Source: Microbacterium sp. CBA3102
GTDB lineage: Bacteria; Actinomycetota; Actinomycetes; Actinomycetales; Microbacteriaceae
Assembly (NCBI RefSeq): GCF_007954505.1
Contig: NZ_CP042412.1
Span: 434,001 to 498,000 of the forward strand
Reading direction: 5' to 3'
Length of the DNA: 64,000 nt
The notes under the pieces are model-generated. The model searched no databases. It saw nothing but the letters and a program-made list of their open reading frames with translations, and was not told where the DNA came from. A program made the translations under genes and the position numbers. Each line of letters opens with the position of its first letter. Positions within the stretch are counted from its first letter, which is position 1. Of this stretch, positions 7,710 through 51,403 are shown one piece after another.

Positions 7710-7724
7710 CCGGAGTGTTCTCCC

Positions 7725-7788
7725 CCGTTCCGGTCGCGATATGGCGCCCTATTCGAGGGAAACGGGTGCCATATCGCGACCGGAACGG
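7725..7788. repeat. 64-bp palindromic element (family D)
   Basis: Two 25-bp arms (7725-7749 and 7764-7788) match at 24 of 25 positions, with a 14-bp loop. The arms carry CCGTTCCGGTCGCGATATGG. It lies in the gap after the putA stop. It has no T-tract, so it is not a classical terminator, though it could end transcription of putA. It resembles in layout the other palindromic elements of this window. Confidence 0.7.
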
Positions 7789-7857
7789 AGGAACGCCACC
7801 GGAACGGAGGGACGCCACGGGAACGGAGGGACGCCACGGGACCGGAGGGACGGATGG
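7782..7857. repeat. four tandem 19-bp repeats
   Basis: Four consecutive 19-bp units starting at 7782, 7801, 7820 and 7839, consensus GGAACGGAGGGACGCCACG. Units 2 and 3 are identical; units 1 and 4 are degenerate. The first unit overlaps the right arm of the palindrome at 7725-7788, so the array seems to have grown from its end. The array ends 14 bp before the putA stop codon. Confidence 0.75.
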
Positions 7858-17226: not shown

Positions 17227-18930
17227 TCAGCGCCCCGAGACCTTTCCGAAGACCTTCGCGATCGGAGCGAGCACCAGCGGACGAGCGGCCGCCCAGCCGA
17301 TGGCGATCACGACGATCGAGACGACGAAGACCCAGAATCCCGTCCAGGTGGCGGCATCCTGCGCGGCGAACATGTGGTTCAGGTTGCGCAGGAATCCGGT
17401 CAGCATCACCAGCGCCACGTGCGCGATGATGAACGCCACGAAGTACAGCATGATCGGGAAGTGCAGGGCACGAGCCCATTCGACCGGATATGCCTTCGAC
17501 AGCTTCTCGGCCTTCTTCGGCCACAGCCCCGACATCCGGAAACCGGTGATCGCCGCGAGGGGAGCCGCGATGAACACGGTCGCGAAGTACGCGAGCTGTT
17601 GCAGGCTGTTGTAGTTGTTCCAGCCGTTCTCATGCGGCCAGTCGAAGGAGACATACTGCAGGGCCGCCGACAGTGCGTTCGGGAAGACCTCCCAGCTCGT
17701 CGGCACGATGCGCACCCAGTGCCCGGTGACGAACAGCAGCACCACGAAGATGACGCCGTTCACGAGCCACAGGATGTCGAGCGCCTGGTGGAACCACAGG
17801 TTCAGGCTGATCTTGCCCTTCGCATTGCCGCGGGGCGTCCAGAAGACCGTCGGACGCTTCTCCGTGCGCACCTGCAGTCCGGAGCGGATGATGAGCACCA
17901 TCAGGAACATGTTGAAGAAGTGCGCCCAGTTCACCCACGGTGCGAATCCGGGCGCGACCTCGATAGCCGGCTCGTACTCACCGGGGAAGGCCGCGAGGAA
18001 GTCCTGCATGAACGGGAAGCTCAGGAGCGTGCGCACCAGCGCGATCGCGGCTCCGGCGAGCACTCCGAGCGCAGCGGCCCCGAACAGGACGGCGATCGCC
18101 TGGGTCCAGGTCGGACGACGACGTGCGGGCTCCGGGGCCGCAGCCACGTGCCGCGGTGCACGGCCGTCCCACACCGTGCGCTTCCACGCCAGCGGCGTAT
18201 CGACGGTGGCGACAGCAGTGGCCGGGACCGGCACGGCCGCGGAGGCAGGGGGCTCGGCAGCGACAGGACGCGCGGAAGCGGTGGCAGCAGCGTCGACAGG
18301 GGCCGCGGCTGCGGGGACGATCGGAGTGATGCCGGCGGGCGGCCAGGGCTCACCACCGACGACACGAGGCAGCCCACGTCGAACGCCGGTCGCAGAGGAG
18401 GCGTGCGTCTCCGGCCTCGCGGCGGGCGCGGGCGTCGACACCGAAGCAGCAGCGCCCACGGTGTCCGACACGACCGGGGCGGATGCCGCAGCCGAGGATG
18501 CCGCAGCCGAGGATGCCGCAGCCGAGGCGGATGCCGCAGGCGAGGATGCCGCGACCGAGGATGCCGGCGTGGGCACCGCCTCCGCGGCTGGTTCGTCCGC
18601 GACGGGAGCCTGCGCACCACTGACCGGCGGCCACGGCTCACCCCCGGGCACGCGCGGGAGCCCTCGCCGGATGCCCGCGGTGGAGGAGGCGACCACACCC
18701 GTCGTCGCCGCGACGGCTCCGTTCACGGACCCCGCACGCGGTGCGAGCGCGTCCGCCTCCGGCGCGACCTCGGCCGCGACGGGTTCAGCGACCGGCACGG
18801 CCGCCTCCGGCAGCGACCCGCCTGAAGGCCCGGAAGCATCGGCCGCTTCCACGACCGCAGCATCCGCAGGGGGCCAGGGGTCACCGCCCGGCACGCGCGG
18901 CAGACCGCGTCGCAGCATCCGCGTGGCCAT
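17227..18930 (-). CDS. cytochrome b561-like membrane protein with repeat-bearing disordered N-terminus
   Basis: A 567-residue protein in two parts. The first 240 residues are Ala/Pro/Ser-rich, with no hydrophobic helix, and carry three spaced copies of RRGLPRVPGGEPWPP (near residues 7, 88 and 183). The rest has about six membrane helices with His in NWAHFFNMFL, LWFHQALDI and ALHFPIMLYFVAFIIAHVAL, the pattern of haem-ligating b561/hydrogenase-cytochrome-b proteins. DNA around 18484-18566 holds a short tandem repeat (GAGGATGCCGCAGCC) encoding an Ala/Ser run. It lies two bases after the etfA stop and is probably co-transcribed with etfBA, suggesting an electron route from ETF into the membrane; that role is inference. 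Confidence 0.75.
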   Translation of the reverse strand: MATRMLRRGLPRVPGGDPWPPADAAVVEAADASGPSGGSLPEAAVPVAEPVAAEVAPEADALAPRAGSVNGAVAATTGVVASSTAGIRRGLPRVPGGEPWPPVSGAQAPVADEPAAEAVPTPASSVAASSPAASASAAASSAAASSAAASAPVVSDTVGAAASVSTPAPAARPETHASSATGVRRGLPRVVGGEPWPPAGITPIVPAAAAPVDAAATASARPVAAEPPASAAVPVPATAVATVDTPLAWKRTVWDGRAPRHVAAAPEPARRRPTWTQAIAVLFGAAALGVLAGAAIALVRTLLSFPFMQDFLAAFPGEYEPAIEVAPGFAPWVNWAHFFNMFLMVLIIRSGLQVRTEKRPTVFWTPRGNAKGKISLNLWFHQALDILWLVNGVIFVVLLFVTGHWVRIVPTSWEVFPNALSAALQYVSFDWPHENGWNNYNSLQQLAYFATVFIAAPLAAITGFRMSGLWPKKAEKLSKAYPVEWARALHFPIMLYFVAFIIAHVALVMLTGFLRNLNHMFAAQDAATWTGFWVFVVSIVVIAIGWAAARPLVLAPIAKVFGKVSGR

Positions 18931-18932
18931 GA

Positions 18933-19904
18933 CTAGTTCTTCCGCGCCTCGAGCGCCGCGATCACCTGGGGCACCACGGTGAACACGTCGCCGACGATGC
19001 CGAAGTCCGCGACCTCGAAGATCGGCGCCTCGGGGTCCTTGTTGATCGCGACGATGTTCTTCGACGTCTGCATGCCCGCACGGTGCTGGATCGCTCCGGA
19101 TATGCCGAGAGCGACATACAGCTGCGGAGAGACCGAGACGCCCGTCTGTCCGACCTGGTGCGACTGCGGGATGTATCCGGCGTCGACGGCGGCCCGGGAG
19201 GCACCGACCGCCGCTCCGAGCGCGTCGGCGAGCTCCTCGACGAGCACGAACTTCTCCTTGGAGGCGAGTCCGCGTCCGCCCGAGACGACACGGGTGGCAC
19301 CCCTCAGCTCAGGGCGGGAGGAGGCGACCTCGACCGCTTCGACCGGACCTGCCGTCGCGGCAACAACCCCGGACGGGGTGACATCGAGTACCTCGACCGA
19401 GTGCGACGGCACCGCCTCGGCACGCGCATCGACCGCGCCCTGACGCACCGTGATCACCGGGGTTCCGAATGTCGGAGCGGAGTCGACCAGATACGCGCCG
19501 CCGTAGACCGAGTGGTGCGCGACGACACCCTCCTCGTCGCGGGAGACACCGACCGCGTCGACCGACAGCGCGCTCTTCGTGCGCACCGCGAATCGTCCCG
19601 CCACGTCTCGACCGGAGATCGAGTTCGAGATGAGCACAGCATCGGGTCGCACCTGGGCTGCCGCAGCCTGCAACGCGTCCACGATCGGGACCGTCAGCGC
19701 GGTGGGGTCTCCGTCGGCCGTCAGCACCACGGATGCTCCGGCCGCGGCGGCCTGATCGACCGCCGCAGGGCTGCCGCCGACGATCAGGGCCACGGGCGTA
19801 CCGACCGTCGACGCGGCACCGATCAGCGCGGCTGTGCTGGTCGCGACGTAGCCGGAGGGGTCGACGTCGACGAGGACGAGGATCGGGTTCTCGGAAGAAG
19901 TCAT
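18933..19904 (-). CDS. etfA: electron transfer flavoprotein subunit alpha
   Basis: FAD-binding alpha subunit (323 residues) of the soluble ETF that accepts electrons from acyl-CoA dehydrogenases. Seen: the C-terminal FAD domain with [68 protein letters not shown] and [28 protein letters not shown], which is the family signature. The start at 19904 follows the etfB stop by one base. It forms an operon etfB-etfA-cytochrome. Its likely partner here is the acyl-CoA dehydrogenase at 24697-25905. Confidence 0.95.
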
Positions 19905-19905
19905 C

Positions 19906-20682
19906 TCACACCAACCTGTTCTGCACGAGATAGTCGACGAGCTTGTCGGCGGCATCGCCTTCATCGGTGATCTTCACGCCGGCCGCGCGCGGAGGCTTCT
20001 CCGACACCGCGGTCATGATGGTTCGCGGCGCTGCGGACGGATCCGCCGAGACCTCGAGGTCGGCGAGCGAGAGCACCTCCAGCGGCTTCTTCTTCGCCGC
20101 CATGATGCCCTTGAAGTTGGGGAAGCGCGCGTCGGGGAGCGCCTCGGTGATCGAGATCACTGCGGGCAGCGACGCCGTGATCGGCTGACTGCCGGCATCC
20201 GCACCGCGGACCCCGGAGACGCCGTCCTCGGTGATCTCGACCGACGTGAGAGCGGTGGCCTGCGCGAACCCGAGGTGCTCGGCGAGCATGGCCGGGATGA
20301 CACCGCCCGAGCCGTCGGTCGACAGGTTCCCGGTGATCACCAGGTCGGGGCTCCCGCGGCGGATCGCGGCGGCCAGCACTTCGGCGGTGAGGCCGAGATC
20401 GGCACCCACGAGTTCCTCATCGGCGATGTGCACTGCCGACGAGGCGCCGATCGCGAGCGCCCGACGCACGGAGGCGGTCGAGCCGGCCGGAGCCATCGAG
20501 AGGGCGACGACCTCGGTCCCGTCGTTCTTGTCGGCGTAACTGAGGGCGACCTCGAGAGCACGCTCGGTGATCTCGTCCAGGACGACATCTCCGGCGGCGC
20601 GATCAGCGAGCCCGGTCTCGAGATTCAGTTTGCGATCGCCATAGGTGTCGGGCACCTCTTTGACCAAGACGAAGATCTTCAT
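19906..20682 (-). CDS. etfB: electron transfer flavoprotein subunit beta
   Basis: AMP-binding beta subunit (258 residues) of ETF. Seen: MKIFVLVKEVPDTYGDRKLNLETGL at the N-terminus, LSYADKNDGTEVVALSMAPAGSTASVRRALAIGASSAVHI in the middle, and PDLVITGNLSTDGSGGVIPAMLAEHLGFAQATAL. The ATG at 20682 has a GAGGAG ribosome site ahead. First gene of the etfBA-cytochrome operon; the upstream gap carries a TGTATACAT palindrome (20781-20789) shared with the prp promoter region. Confidence 0.94.
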   Translation of the reverse strand: MKIFVLVKEVPDTYGDRKLNLETGLADRAAGDVVLDEITERALEVALSYADKNDGTEVVALSMAPAGSTASVRRALAIGASSAVHIADEELVGADLGLTAEVLAAAIRRGSPDLVITGNLSTDGSGGVIPAMLAEHLGFAQATALTSVEITEDGVSGVRGADAGSQPITASLPAVISITEALPDARFPNFKGIMAAKKKPLEVLSLADLEVSADPSAAPRTIMTAVSEKPPRAAGVKITDEGDAADKLVDYLVQNRLV

Positions 20683-20780
20683 CGATTGCTCCTCACGACA
20701 CGCTGAGTCTATCCGCATGGGTCTCTATGTAGCCAAAAGCGGAGGAAACCACGGCCAGGACCCCAGAATTGCCCCGACAA

Positions 20781-20789
20781 TGTATACAT
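20781..20789. promoter_or_regulatory. GTATAC-type palindrome in the etfB/MarR divergent gap
   Basis: TGTATACAT lies about 100 bp upstream of etfB and 70 bp upstream of the divergent MarR gene. The same nine bases occur at 39069-39077, just before the GntR gene of the prp operon. GTATAC centres are typical of FadR/FCD-group GntR operators. It may also simply be a -10 region. Confidence 0.35.
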
Positions 20790-20859
20790 ACCCCACACTC
20801 GGGCTGCGGTATCCCCCCACGCTCCGTCCGCCGCACGCCGCCGCCGGTACCGTAGAGAG

Positions 20860-21396
20860 GTGACCCGACCCCGCCCGCTCCCCGTTGACCCGCTCGCCGA
20901 GGCCAAGCGGCAGTGGATCGCGCACGGGTGGACGGATGCCGCCGACGGCATGGCTGTCGTCACCTCGGTCATGCGGGCCCAACAGCTCCTGCTCGCCCGC
21001 GTCGATGCGGCGCTCAAGCCGTTCGCACTCAGCTTCGCCCGGTTCGAGGTGCTGCGCCTGCTCGCGTTCAGCCGCGCCGGACGCCTCCCCCTGTCGAGTG
21101 TCGTCGCTCGCCTTCAGGTGCACCCGACCACGGTCACGAGCACGGCGGAGCGACTGGTCCGCGATGGGCTCGTGGTGCGGGAGCCGCACCCGCACGACGG
21201 TCGGGCCGCGCTCCTCGCCCTCACGGATGCCGGGCGGGAACTGGTCGAACGCGCCACCCGGTCCCTGAACTCCGAGGTCTTCGTCGATCCCGGCATGAGC
21301 GGAGACGACGCCGCGGAACTCGTCGCGATCGTCGCACGGCTCCGCAAAGCCGCAGGCGACTTCGCGGACCCTCGCCCGCATCCCGAGCCGCTCTGA
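20860..21396 (+). CDS. MarR family transcriptional regulator
   Basis: A 178-residue MarR-type regulator with an extended N-terminus. Seen: winged helix from LSFARFEVLRLLAFSRAGRLPLSSVVARLQVHPTTVTSTAERLVRDGLVVREPHPHDGRAALLALTDAG, with the recognition helix and the DxRA wing. The start is a GTG at 20860; no clear ribosome site precedes it, which suggests leaderless translation. One base separates it from the SRPBCC gene, and the two with the YdeI-like gene form an operon. Divergent from etfB. Confidence 0.88.
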   Translation: MTRPRPLPVDPLAEAKRQWIAHGWTDAADGMAVVTSVMRAQQLLLARVDAALKPFALSFARFEVLRLLAFSRAGRLPLSSVVARLQVHPTTVTSTAERLVRDGLVVREPHPHDGRAALLALTDAGRELVERATRSLNSEVFVDPGMSGDDAAELVAIVARLRKAAGDFADPRPHPEPL

Positions 21397-21397
21397 C

Positions 21398-21868
21398 ATG
21401 CCCCGGTTCGTCCTCGAGACGCTCATCGCCGCACCACCCGCTGCCGTGTTCGCCGCATCGCTGGACCCTGAGCTGCACGTCCGCTCGATGGCTCGACACG
21501 GCGAGTCGATGGTGGAGGCACCGGCGGGGGGATCGTTCACGGAGGAGTCGACCGTGACGTGGCGGGCACGTCATTTCGGCGTCCCGTTCCGGTTGCGTTC
21601 CGTCGTGTTCGACATCGATCCGCCCCACGGCTTCTCGGACCGGCAGATCGCCGGCCCGTTCGCGGCGTTCCTGCACGAGCACCGGTTCGTTGCGCATCCG
21701 TCCGGCACGCTCATGCGGGACACGGTGACGTTCCGGTCGCCCTTCGGTCCGCTCGGCCGGATCGTCGACGCCCTGTTCCTCGGCGCGTACATGCGCCGCC
21801 TGATCAGCGAACGCAACACGATTCTGGCCGCCGAGATCGAGGACCCGGGGCGTACCCTGTCGGCATGA
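21398..21868 (+). CDS. SRPBCC (START-like) domain protein
   Basis: A 156-residue protein of the SRPBCC/polyketide-cyclase-like ligand-binding fold. Seen: the N-terminal strand FVLETLIAAPPAAVFAASLDPELHVRSM typical of the family, then alternating strands to the C-terminal helix SPFGPLGRIVDALFLGAYMRRLISERNTILAAEI. Such proteins bind hydrophobic ligands; the ligand is unknown. Its ATGA overlap with the next gene and one-base gap from the MarR gene indicate a three-gene operon. Confidence 0.82.
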   Translation: MPRFVLETLIAAPPAAVFAASLDPELHVRSMARHGESMVEAPAGGSFTEESTVTWRARHFGVPFRLRSVVFDIDPPHGFSDRQIAGPFAAFLHEHRFVAHPSGTLMRDTVTFRSPFGPLGRIVDALFLGAYMRRLISERNTILAAEIEDPGRTLSA

Positions 21869-22308
21869 GCGAACTGCGTCTGCACACCGTCCTCACCGGC
21901 CGCGGCCCCGCCGCGGCGATCCTGCTCACGGACGAGCAGGTCGCGTCGTTCGGTGCCGGGAAGACCTTCCCGGTCGCCGTCACCATCGACGGACGCACCG
22001 CCCGCCTGCGACTGGCGCGGATGGGCGACGAGAACCTGATCGGGTTCAGCAAGGCCGTCCGCACCGAACTCGGGCTGGAGATCGGGCAGGAGATCGATGC
22101 CGTGATCCGGGTGGATTCAGCCGAGCGCACCGTCGACATCCCCACCGAACTCGCTGCAGCCCTGGACGCCGACCCTGCCGCGCGGGCACGCTTCGACGCA
22201 CTGTCGTACTCCGTACGCAAGGAGCACGCGCGGAGCGTGTCCGAGGCCAAACAGGACGCGACGCGCGAACGCCGGATCGCGAAGGTCCTCGACGCCCTCT
22301 CCGGCTGA
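21865..22308 (+). CDS. YdeI/OmdA and DUF1905 domain protein
   Basis: A 147-residue fusion of an N-terminal DUF1905 beta-barrel (LRLHTVLTGRGPAAAILLTDEQVASFGAGKTFPVAVTIDG) and a C-terminal YdeI-like 'bacteriocin-protection' helical domain (LAAALDADPAARARFDALSYSVRKEHARSVSEAKQDATRERRIAKVLDAL). Start ATG at 21865 overlaps the previous stop. The function of the family is poorly known; in E. coli, YdeI relatives are linked to stress tolerance. The last 36 bases of this gene are duplicated at 22795 as part of a 124-bp direct repeat. Confidence 0.82.
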   Translation: MSELRLHTVLTGRGPAAAILLTDEQVASFGAGKTFPVAVTIDGRTARLRLARMGDENLIGFSKAVRTELGLEIGQEIDAVIRVDSAERTVDIPTELAAALDADPAARARFDALSYSVRKEHARSVSEAKQDATRERRIAKVLDALSG

Positions 22309-22396
22309 GGGCGTTCACAACTCCTCAGGAATCTCCGACGAGCACCGCGCGAAGCGGCGTTTCCCGCGCGACGCACTCCTTTCTGAGGAGTTGCGA
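22273..22396. repeat. 124-bp direct repeat, copy 1
   Basis: Identical to 22795-22918 over all 124 bases. It holds the last 36 bases of the YdeI-like gene and nearly all of an 86-bp palindromic element. The two copies are 522 bp apart and flank a 398-bp segment with a small membrane protein gene. Perfect identity implies a recent duplication or integration event. Confidence 0.9.
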
Positions 22397-22398
22397 TC
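22313..22398. repeat. 86-bp palindromic element, family A copy 1
   Basis: Begins GTTCACAACTCCTCAG and ends CTGAGGAGTTGCGATC. It starts five bases after the YdeI-like stop. A short CG-rich hairpin (22398-22418) follows directly. The right end differs from copy 2 only in its last two bases (ATC versus AAC). Confidence 0.8.
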
Positions 22399-22458
22399 CC
22401 CGCCGTCCCGGGGCGGGGCAACGCGAGTCGGTGACGGTCGGCCGACCGTGACCGAGCG

Positions 22459-22695
22459 CTACGGGCGGATGCTCATGGAGCGATGGTTGAGCATGATGGC
22501 GCCGAGGACGCTACCGATGCTTCCGATCACGATCAGCACGGTCGCGAGGGTTGTCAGGGAGTTTGCGTCCCCCGGCCCGACGATGATGGTGGTGATCGCG
22601 AGCACCACTCCGAGGAATGTGAGCGCCGAGGAAGCAAGTGTGCCGAGTGTGAGCCAACGGGTACGAGTATCGCGGATGTTCTGTTTCAATCCCAT
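22459..22695 (-). CDS. small two-helix membrane protein
   Basis: A 78-residue protein I do not recognise. Seen: a charged N-terminus MGLKQNIRDTRTRW, then two hydrophobic helices, LTLGTLASSALTFLGVVLAITTIIVG and LTTLATVLIVIGSIGSVLGAIML, split by a short loop GPGDANS, and a charged tail. The ATG at 22693-22695 with GGGGGT upstream is preferred over an upstream ATG at 22761. It is the only gene between the two 124-bp direct repeats, so it may be cargo or a recent insertion. Probably located in the cytoplasmic membrane. Confidence 0.6.
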   Translation of the reverse strand: MGLKQNIRDTRTRWLTLGTLASSALTFLGVVLAITTIIVGPGDANSLTTLATVLIVIGSIGSVLGAIMLNHRSMSIRP

Positions 22696-22794
22696 GTCAT
22701 TACCCCCAGCATGCGACTCCGCCGACGACGAAGATACTGATGCAGATCGCGTCATTTCCACTTGCAGCCTTGCACACGTCCAACAGCCAAGGGT

Positions 22795-22918
22795 CGGATC
22801 GCGAAGGTCCTCGACGCCCTCTCCGGCTGAGGGCGTTCACAACTCCTCAGGAATCTCCGACGAGCACCGCGCGAAGCGGCGTTTCCCGCGCGACGCACTC
22901 CTTTCTGAGGAGTTGCGA
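22795..22918. repeat. 124-bp direct repeat, copy 2
   Basis: Second copy of the repeat at 22273-22396. Here the 36 bases of coding sequence have no gene attached, so this copy is the displaced one: a gene end plus its palindromic element, carried to the far side of the small membrane protein gene. Confidence 0.9.
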
Positions 22919-22920
22919 AC
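22835..22920. repeat. 86-bp palindromic element, family A copy 2
   Basis: Begins GTTCACAACTCCTCAG and ends CTGAGGAGTTGCGAAC. It ends six bases before the stop of the enoyl-CoA hydratase gene, which lies on the minus strand. Same length as the copies at 22313, 36755 and 51318. Confidence 0.8.
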
Positions 22921-22926
22921 GAGCAC

Positions 22927-23703
22927 CTAGCGGTTCTGGAAGTCCGGCGAGCGCTTCTCCCGGAACGCCGACATCCCTTCCTTCTGGTCGGCGGTGTCGA
23001 ACAGCGCGGCGAAGGCCTGCTTCTCGTGCGCGAGGCCGTCGGCGAGGGTCGTCTCCATCGCCGCATCCAGCGCGGCCTTCGCCGCATAGACGGACGGCAG
23101 CGACTTCGCGGCGATGGAGTCGGCGAGCGTCGCCGCCTCGGCGAGGAGCTCGGATGCCGGAACGACGCGCGACACGAGACCTGCGCGCTCGGCTTCCTCC
23201 GCCCCCATGAAACGTCCGGAAAGCACCAGCTCGGCCGCCTTGTAGTAGCCGACCGCACGGATCAGGCGCTGCGTACCGCCCATCCCGGGGATGACGCCGA
23301 GGTTGATCTCCGGTTGGCCGAACTTCGCGTTGTCCGCGGCGAGAATGATGTCGCACATCATCGCGAGCTCGCAGCCACCGCCCAGGGCGAAGCCGGAGAC
23401 CGCCGCGATCACGGGGGTGCGCACCGCGGCGAAGTCATGCCAGGCGCCGAAGTGGTCGGTCTCGAGCATCTCCGCCGCGGACATGCTCTCCATCTCCTTG
23501 ATGTCGGCGCCGGCCGCGAACGCCTTCTCGGACCCGGTCACCACGATGGCGCCGACAGCGTCGTCCGTGTCGAAGGCGACGGCGGCCGCGGTGACCTCCT
23601 CCGCGAGTCGGCTGTTCAACGCGTTCAGCGCGCCGGGTCGGTTCAGGGTGATCCACCCCACTCGTCCGCGCTGCTCGACCAGGATCGTCTCGTATTCGGT
23701 CAT
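22927..23703 (-). CDS. enoyl-CoA hydratase/isomerase
   Basis: A 258-residue crotonase-superfamily enzyme, normal length, hydrating 2-enoyl-CoA. Seen: AAGADIKEM (oxyanion strand), [19 protein letters not shown] with the first catalytic Glu, and [20 protein letters not shown] with the second. Both Glu residues are present, which supports hydratase rather than isomerase activity. It is separated from mmsB by palindromic element family B copy 2, but lies on the same strand, and in the valine pathway it would hydrate methacrylyl-CoA; that assignment rests on context. Confidence 0.92.
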
Positions 23704-36735: not shown

Positions 36736-36754
36736 CAGCGCTCCTCGGTGAGGT

Positions 36755-36840
36755 GTTCGCAACTCAGGAAGGATGTGCGTGAACGGGCCGAGCGGGCGGG
36801 CGTGCATGCCATTCGCCCCCCATTCTCCTGAGTTGTGAAC
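36755..36840. repeat. 86-bp palindromic element, family A copy 3
   Basis: Begins GTTCGCAACTCAGGAAGG and ends CTCCTGAGTTGTGAAC. It lies between the prpD stop and the prpB start. It has diverged from copies 1 and 2 (it lacks two bases of the left arm's CTCCTCAG), yet it keeps the total length of 86 bp and an inner AAGGA-GTGCGT motif seen in copy 2. Confidence 0.75.
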
Positions 36841-36850
36841 GGCGTGGACA

Positions 36851-51317: not shown

Positions 51318-51403
51318 GTTCACAACTCCTCAGATATTGCCCGCACACCGGGCTGCGACGGCCGCAAACGCTCGATCTGGGCAATCGTTGAGGAGTTATG
51401 AAC
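51318..51403. repeat. 86-bp palindromic element, family A copy 4
   Basis: Begins GTTCACAACTCCTCAGATAT and ends TTGAGGAGTTATGAAC, again exactly 86 bp, with an inner ATTGCCC/GGGCAAT pair. It fills the gap between the convergent LacI and aldo/keto reductase genes. Confidence 0.8.

Follow-up and report, generated by a model that had tools for sequence, protein, structure and literature searches.

Probable capture of a small membrane gene beside an 84-bp palindrome in Microbacterium, and a possible chromosome-organising role for the palindrome family

We examined a window of 64,000 nt from the genome of Microbacterium sp. CBA3102 (bases 434001-498000), in which two 124-nt direct repeats flank a small membrane-protein gene between a ydeI-like gene and an enoyl-CoA hydratase gene (Table 1). 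The repeats, found by a repeat search and confirmed by script to be identical, start 522 nt apart. A reading of the window made from its sequence only had described just such perfect repeats, and had taken the duplicated stretch to be the end of the ydeI-like gene with its palindromic element. The last 36 nt of ydeI are indeed duplicated, but the palindrome's last base is not: the left edge of the repeat lies in ydeI, 41 bp before the 84-bp palindrome begins, and its right edge falls 1 bp before the palindrome's far end. The 398 bp enclosed by the two copies contain one accepted gene, on the minus strand with its best start at 22695 and its end at 22459, which encodes a small, mainly hydrophobic protein of 78 aa. 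No recombinase or transposase gene was noticed within this segment, and an Rfam scan of 21868-23200 returned a single match, far under the gathering score. The genome assembly consists of a single contig (3,886,003 bases), which makes an artefact of assembly unlikely, as judged without the reads.

Table 1. Features of the repeat locus and of the two other 84-bp elements, in window coordinates.
Feature	Position	Strand	Remarks
ydeI-like gene	21868..22308	+	Pfam OmdA and DUF1905; open; last 36 nt (stop included) duplicated
Direct repeat copy 1	22273..22396	none	124 bp: final 36 nt of ydeI-like gene, spacer, 84-bp palindrome minus its last base
84-bp palindromic element copy 1	22314..22397	none	left arm TTCACAACTCCTCA; last base unlike copy 2
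Captured segment	22397..22794	none	398 bp; missing from G186 and six other relatives aligned here
GC-rich hairpin downstream of membrane gene	22398..22418	-	by eye, may be a terminator but lacks a T tract; terminator scan did not list it
Membrane protein P0001	22459..22695	-	78 aa; hydrophobic stretches by eye; immunity-like by position; relatives G256 (47%), G169 (40%)
3' stub of secreted-protein gene	22700..22792	-	30 codons and stop; cut off at repeat copy 2
Direct repeat copy 2	22795..22918	none	identical to copy 1
84-bp palindromic element copy 2	22836..22919	none	
Enoyl-CoA hydratase gene	22927..23703	-	convergent neighbour
Third 84-bp element	36756..36839	none	between two genes; absent in G186
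Fourth 84-bp element	51319..51402	none	between convergent genes; present in G186

When the locus was used as a query against 295 genomes of the genus, 267 matched. In a genome of the same species (G186), the two halves of the query overlap by exactly 124 bp, which corresponds to one repeat copy without the cargo. The region is likewise single-copy and cargo-free in six further relatives (G252, G002, G211, G253, G023 and G040), with 145-146 bp between the same anchors. The insertion supposed in the sequence-only reading is thus borne out by seven relatives of just the kind it had advised looking for, and 522 bp were gained in the window's lineage. Over four aligned blocks of ~40 kb, G186 and the window are 97.6-99.1% identical. 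Both window copies share one base that G186 and G252 lack, suggesting that the second copy was made from the strain's own sequence after its split from G186. Within a short-repeat stretch of GAGGATGCCGCAGCC units at 18504-18543, the window is ~63 bp longer than G186.

To characterize the cargo, we searched 366 genomes of the genus with the membrane protein and obtained 16 matches at E <= 0.01, three of which were judged clear (the own genome, G256 and G169). In G169, the homologue sits after a protein of 254 aa whose start resembles a signal peptide by eye and whose C-terminal end reads ...VCKTASYGVHAIYLNAYVTGGVGCWGQ. The stub PWLLDVCKAASGNDAICISIFVVGGVACWG, located just before the window's membrane gene, aligns to the end of this protein and continues up to and into repeat copy 2. 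A search of 361 genomes with the secreted protein yielded relatives in 14 (E <= 0.001), among them G169, and several of these matches were weak and partial. By eye, a small hydrophobic open reading frame (ORF) follows the secreted-protein gene in all six loci read (G169, G294, G165, G189 with a broken frame, G070 and G267); in G256 the membrane gene was seen without its partner. The homology of the stub and the recurrence of the hydrophobic ORF in the six loci indicate that the cargo is a fragment of a two-gene unit and not a clean cassette. The layout of the pair suggests toxin and immunity roles.

The cargo protein, its two relatives and the partner, as far as each was scanned, had no match in Pfam, NCBIfam or PADLOC above a curated cut-off, and the G169 pair received no assignment above it; the matches below threshold include one of the G169 membrane protein to Phage_holin_3_6 (18.9 bits vs a cut-off of 28.4). 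Loci L085-L090 encode secreted-looking proteins, most with CWGQ at the C-terminus, and in every case a small hydrophobic ORF comes next; we regard this family as a candidate new bacteriocin/immunity family. The 398-bp segment had no match in the plasmid or phage collections. A wider 1001-bp query matched 36 plasmid records, the 20 listed ones only in the ydeI or hydratase part, and the cargo protein itself had no match in plasmids. In genome_contigs, none of the 333 stretches that fitted a pattern for the cargo protein was confirmed. A single pattern match in a viral contig (L314) was discarded as AT-rich and apparently due to chance.

How the segment arrived is constrained by its edges. The sequence-only reading had considered a recombination through the palindrome and an element that moves small genes into palindrome sites. 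A mobile cassette or site-specific system with the palindrome as its attachment site would account for an insertion that sits at a member of a dispersed palindrome family. However, the repeat boundaries do not coincide with those of the palindrome, the cargo edge cuts a gene, and the 398 bp carry no visible recombinase or transposase gene. Moreover, a survey of 159 distinct elements, namely those flanked on each side by 1 kb or more in the fetched loci, revealed no other cargo between duplicated copies. An exact repeat of at least 30 nt touching an element occurred only here and in G121, where two similar elements stand in tandem (L296, ~1347-1596) with a 43-bp exact stretch in common and no cargo. 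We therefore regard the palindrome as no mover of cargo, and a site-specific system of this kind as scarcely credible.

Insertion of a transposon with target-site duplication, which should bring a transposase, inverted ends and a short duplication, was rejected on the content of the segment, one accepted small gene plus a stub, and on the 124-bp length of the duplication. In integron cassettes, duplication is confined to the attC site, whose cores read RYYYAAC and GTTRRRY. Here the repeat takes in 41 bp beyond the palindrome and the arm reads GTTRTGA, unlike GTTRRRY, and this candidate was dropped as well. For integration of a Campbell-type circle, the own genome has no second full 124-bp place and the plasmid and phage collections no match, although the donor may be extinct or unsampled. 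Inspection of the two insertion junctions by eye, with no donor sequence at hand, found no microhomology that decides the route.

We favour a single capture, because the repeat edges lie off the palindrome, the cargo edge cuts a gene and no like case exists among the 159 elements. A foreign scrap, made up of the secreted-protein stub, its membrane-protein partner and the hairpin, would have been joined at the palindrome's far foot, and 124 bp of neighbouring host sequence would have been copied to the scrap's opposite side. The likeliest route would be repair of a break, or a stalled fork switching template, at a fragile palindrome.

The flank of the insertion brings a second scenario into play. 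At 18544-22396 the window is more divergent from G186 (97.6%) than on both sides (99.1%), probably a sign of past recombination that ended at or near the insertion. In a two-step course of homology-assisted illegitimate recombination, the complete two-gene operon would first have occupied the gap between palindrome and hydratase gene. A fragment starting in ydeI would then have come in and joined at a random point of the secreted-protein gene and, through homology, in the hydratase gene, with loss of the rest and a second 124-bp copy left behind. This course explains both the cut secreted-protein gene and a left repeat edge at no special sequence, and it would agree with the divergent left flank (18.5-22.4 kb). 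In E. coli, S. aureus and S. pyogenes, short variable segments, largely attributed to illegitimate recombination, make up a main kind of diversity between strains (PMC2884548). The present insertion resembles those segments in being sub-kilobase, strain-variable and probably produced by illegitimate recombination, but most repeats there are <30 bp, compared with 124 bp here. On the other hand, the base that both copies share and G186 and G252 lack means that the donor would have to be a near strain, and the filled allele was not found, with only one other genome of the species available for comparison. We consider the two-step course the main rival, though rather unlikely, and retain the single capture as the more probable.

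Independently of the cargo, the palindrome belongs to a dispersed family, with four 84-bp members in the window when both repeat copies are counted. Its anatomy is two inverted 14-bp half-sites, mostly 83-84 bp end to end. The pattern TTCAYAACTC-N60-66-GAGTTRTGAA was found in 63 of 361 genus genomes, while the reversed control had 0 among the matches listed. A stricter 83-84 bp pattern applied to genome_contigs (84,980 species) yielded 77 stretches, all from Microbacterium or Plantibacter by title. The loci then fetched contained 71 distinct elements, of 84 bp (n=50), 83 bp (n=18) and 81, 82 and 85 bp (one each). In a literature search, mostly without subscription papers, none of the papers listed dealt with these palindromic elements, as judged largely by title or opening of the abstract. 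At 7721-7792, the window also contains a near-perfect 72-bp inverted repeat of another kind, with CCGTTCCGGTCGCGATATGGC arms.

The half-sites occur in dialects. The four bases past the fixed ten are mainly CTCA, CGGA, AGGA, AGCA or CGCA, and are the same in both arms in 51 of 71 elements. Some genomes keep to one dialect wholly or largely (G308, 17/17 half-sites CGGA; G280, 22/23 AGGA; G149, 20/24 AGGA plus 4 CGGA; G310, 21/26 CTCA plus 5 CGCA). At the ydeI-hydratase locus itself, the dialect is CTCA in G238 and G117, AGGA in G280, G149 and G230, and AGCA in G284 and G001; in G002, G253 and G040, which have no strict element anywhere, the arms at this locus are eroded. A site can thus outlast a change in its half-sites, which behave as if they followed a protein. 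The ydeI-hydratase gap at loci L038 and L022 (G001 and G282) harbours a second kind of paired arms (ACTCCGGAG..., right end TTGTGGAGC) beside or in place of the usual element, and at G000:C1:1224965-1225138 (L101) two adjacent elements differ in interior and in arm type.

The spacing between half-sites is quantized. We listed half-sites irrespective of spacing in six genomes and collected the convergent pairs within 400 nt (n=59). Their lengths were 82-85 bp in 50 cases, 94-96 bp in four, 105-106 bp in two and 127 bp in one, and the remaining two, 215 and 267 bp, look like pairings across neighbouring elements. A strict scan of lengths 86-116 across the 361 genomes hit 48 places in 27 genomes, with 37 at 94-96 bp, 10 at 105-106 bp and one at 114 bp. 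With looser arms, the fetched loci added one 72-bp element (G087), one turn fewer, and one case each of 114 and 117 bp, which enclose an element of 84 or 95 bp plus a third arm. Thus, lengths step by whole helical turns (~72, 83-84, 95, 106 and 127 bp), and a reading of the elements as RNA hairpins was dropped on that account.

The interiors seem unrelated in sequence, with a modest positional consensus, and share a rhythm. Across the non-redundant elements of 84 bp, peaks of AT content recur at 10-bp intervals, reaching 53-57% at positions 27-28, 37-38, 47-48 and 57-58, with troughs of 7-20%. AT power at period 10 was 0.845, compared with <=0.017 in 400 interior shuffles (n=89). In a set drawn slightly differently, 90/90 elements fell within 60 degrees of one phase (coherence 0.956). 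The best period is 10.0, and the coherence of 394 random windows from the same loci is 0.086. AT-AT steps peak 5, 15 and 25 bp from the dyad; in the nucleosome, these are the dyad distances at which the minor groove faces in.

Gene context raises the question of whether the elements terminate transcription in both directions. Of 30 loci, one taken from each genome, a crude gene caller placed 11 between convergent genes, 14 between genes in the same direction, one between divergent genes and four inside a called gene, and by eye some interiors contain terminator-like hairpins. Yet a scan of both window copies for intrinsic terminators matched an inner stem of 5 pairs and nothing else, no T tract comes after the 14-bp arms and the arm ends are unlike in 20 of 71 elements. 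Whole-turn steps and a fixed bending phase would also have no evident role in an RNA hairpin. Termination is therefore a highly unlikely function for the family.

The sites are unevenly placed on the chromosome. DnaA was located in seven genomes, and merging of half-sites within 2 kb gave 100 sites in six of them, 9-25 per genome with solitary half-sites included. The terminus was taken as the point opposite dnaA, and G117 was handled as one circle of its main contig. The origin-proximal half holds 91 of the 100 sites, and the deciles from dnaA to the opposite point contain 17, 21, 35, 12, 6, 5, 1, 3, 0 and 0. By genome, the origin half accounts for 22/23 sites in G000, 23/25 in G117, 15/16 in G280, 13/14 in G149, 11/13 in G310 and 7/9 in G308.

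Individual sites also come and go. The window's third element, at the prpDB site, is missing in G186, where two genes overlap as TGATG. The extra DNA in the window is 110 bp (36739-36848), which hold the 84-bp element and have CATCAG at each edge, 17 and 9 bp from the element ends. Of 15 relatives at this site, an element or near-element is present in G149, G280 and G238 (a 95-bp version), and a bare junction in eleven, including G186; G230 matched the query but was misoriented in the alignment and remained uncounted. As the right flank closely matches G149 and G280, the element here is taken as due to probable shared ancestry or transfer and not to a new insertion.

Such presence and absence, with CATCAG at both edges of the extra DNA, would also be expected of tiny non-autonomous transposons whose ends must meet. 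Inverted ends and dispersal fit that description, and meeting ends would likewise select for a whole-turn length and a bendable interior. The CATCAG copies, however, do not abut the element, and interiors differ within a genome while matching G000/G186 copies, among those listed, keep theirs (by eye). Origin-centred placement and a change of dialect at a fixed locus would be unexpected for decaying transposons. We judge a transposon origin doubtful.

Instead, we propose that the element is a site for wrapping or looping. Two inverted half-sites would be held whole helical turns apart, with the DNA between them phased to bend one way, and the 84 bp would be able to form a single tight wrap or loop on a presumed sequence-specific protein. 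Palindrome length, bending phase, half-sites and map position all point to one wrapped nucleoprotein complex. Because the sites surround the replication origin and avoid the terminus, a role in chromosome organisation or the timing of division is our leading guess. More specifically, and only tentatively, the 84-bp elements may be the bacterial counterpart of a single nucleosome turn, a wrapping site coded in the sequence, closed by its half-sites and read by a putative protein. In Microbacterium, and perhaps in Plantibacter as well, that protein would mark the origin-proximal half of the chromosome.

Among known systems, the looping operators of lac, gal and ara also consist of two sites at whole helical turns. 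The elements described here share that spacing but are dispersed, mostly behind genes, over half a chromosome, and do not serve one promoter. Noc and SlmA sites are single short palindromes, read by a ParB-like or TetR-like protein. They differ from the two half-sites mostly 83-84 bp apart, with phased DNA between, that we find. The Noc sites of Bacillus (~70) and the similarly spread SlmA sites of E. coli are dispersed palindromes that are absent from the terminus region (PMC4331003), and the terminus gap has its likeness here, where the last two deciles contain none of the 100 sites. A further parallel is the DNA gyrase motif from Topo-Seq and the strong gyrase site of Mu. The motif is 130 bp, with 47 bp periodic, 36 bp central and 47 bp periodic (PMC12393610). 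Its helically phased GC content, which may favour wrapping, is similar. By contrast, the phase here is unbroken through the dyad, AT spacing is even, specific arms stand at the ends and flank coherence is 0.205. Repetitive extragenic palindromes (REPs) are described as one palindrome each, many starting with GTAG, usually in >100 copies (PMC2817692). REP/BIME units and REPINs resemble our elements in being intergenic, palindromic, paired in inverted units and lineage-specific in sequence, but single arms here are not self-palindromic and form no hairpin, and there are 9-25 sites in the six genomes.

Taking both parts together, a one-off capture with local duplication next to a palindrome that acts as a wrap or loop site in chromosome organisation or division timing, we assign this joint reading a probability of roughly 60%. 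Several observations weigh against it. For the capture, the insertion left no decisive trace of its route, and G211 and G023 have the window's letter at the base that both copies share, in a poorly aligned stretch. For the palindromes, no binding protein has been identified, 298 of 361 genus genomes lack a strict match, so the system is not universal, and elements are gained and lost, as at the prpDB site. The four-base arm ends disagree within 20 of the 71 elements. Dialects are mixed in the own genome (36 half-sites: 12 AGGA, 10 CGCA, 9 CTCA, 3 CGGA, 1 AGCA and 1 ATCA) and also in G117. Phasing is less coherent in the 94-96 bp elements (0.505, n=19), the flanks are themselves weakly coherent, and of the four Plantibacter elements one departs from the phase. 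Finally, the origin bias is not significant in G308 alone (7/9, p 0.09), the 100 sites are not independent, being shared by descent between genomes, and the count was made without a matched control class of intergenic sites.

The insertion by itself amounts to ordinary strain-level microdiversity and offers a clean example of the capture of an orphan immunity-like gene. The palindromes may matter more widely. In actinobacteria, the proteins responsible for placing division and for folding the chromosome are poorly known, and a 2014 review describes Actinobacteria as having no recognisable Min and Noc homologues (PMC3989709). If our proposal is true, the elements would be part of a system for nucleoid occlusion or chromosome folding, of which no example has been recognised in this group, and their half-site dialects would change together across the genome in some lineages.
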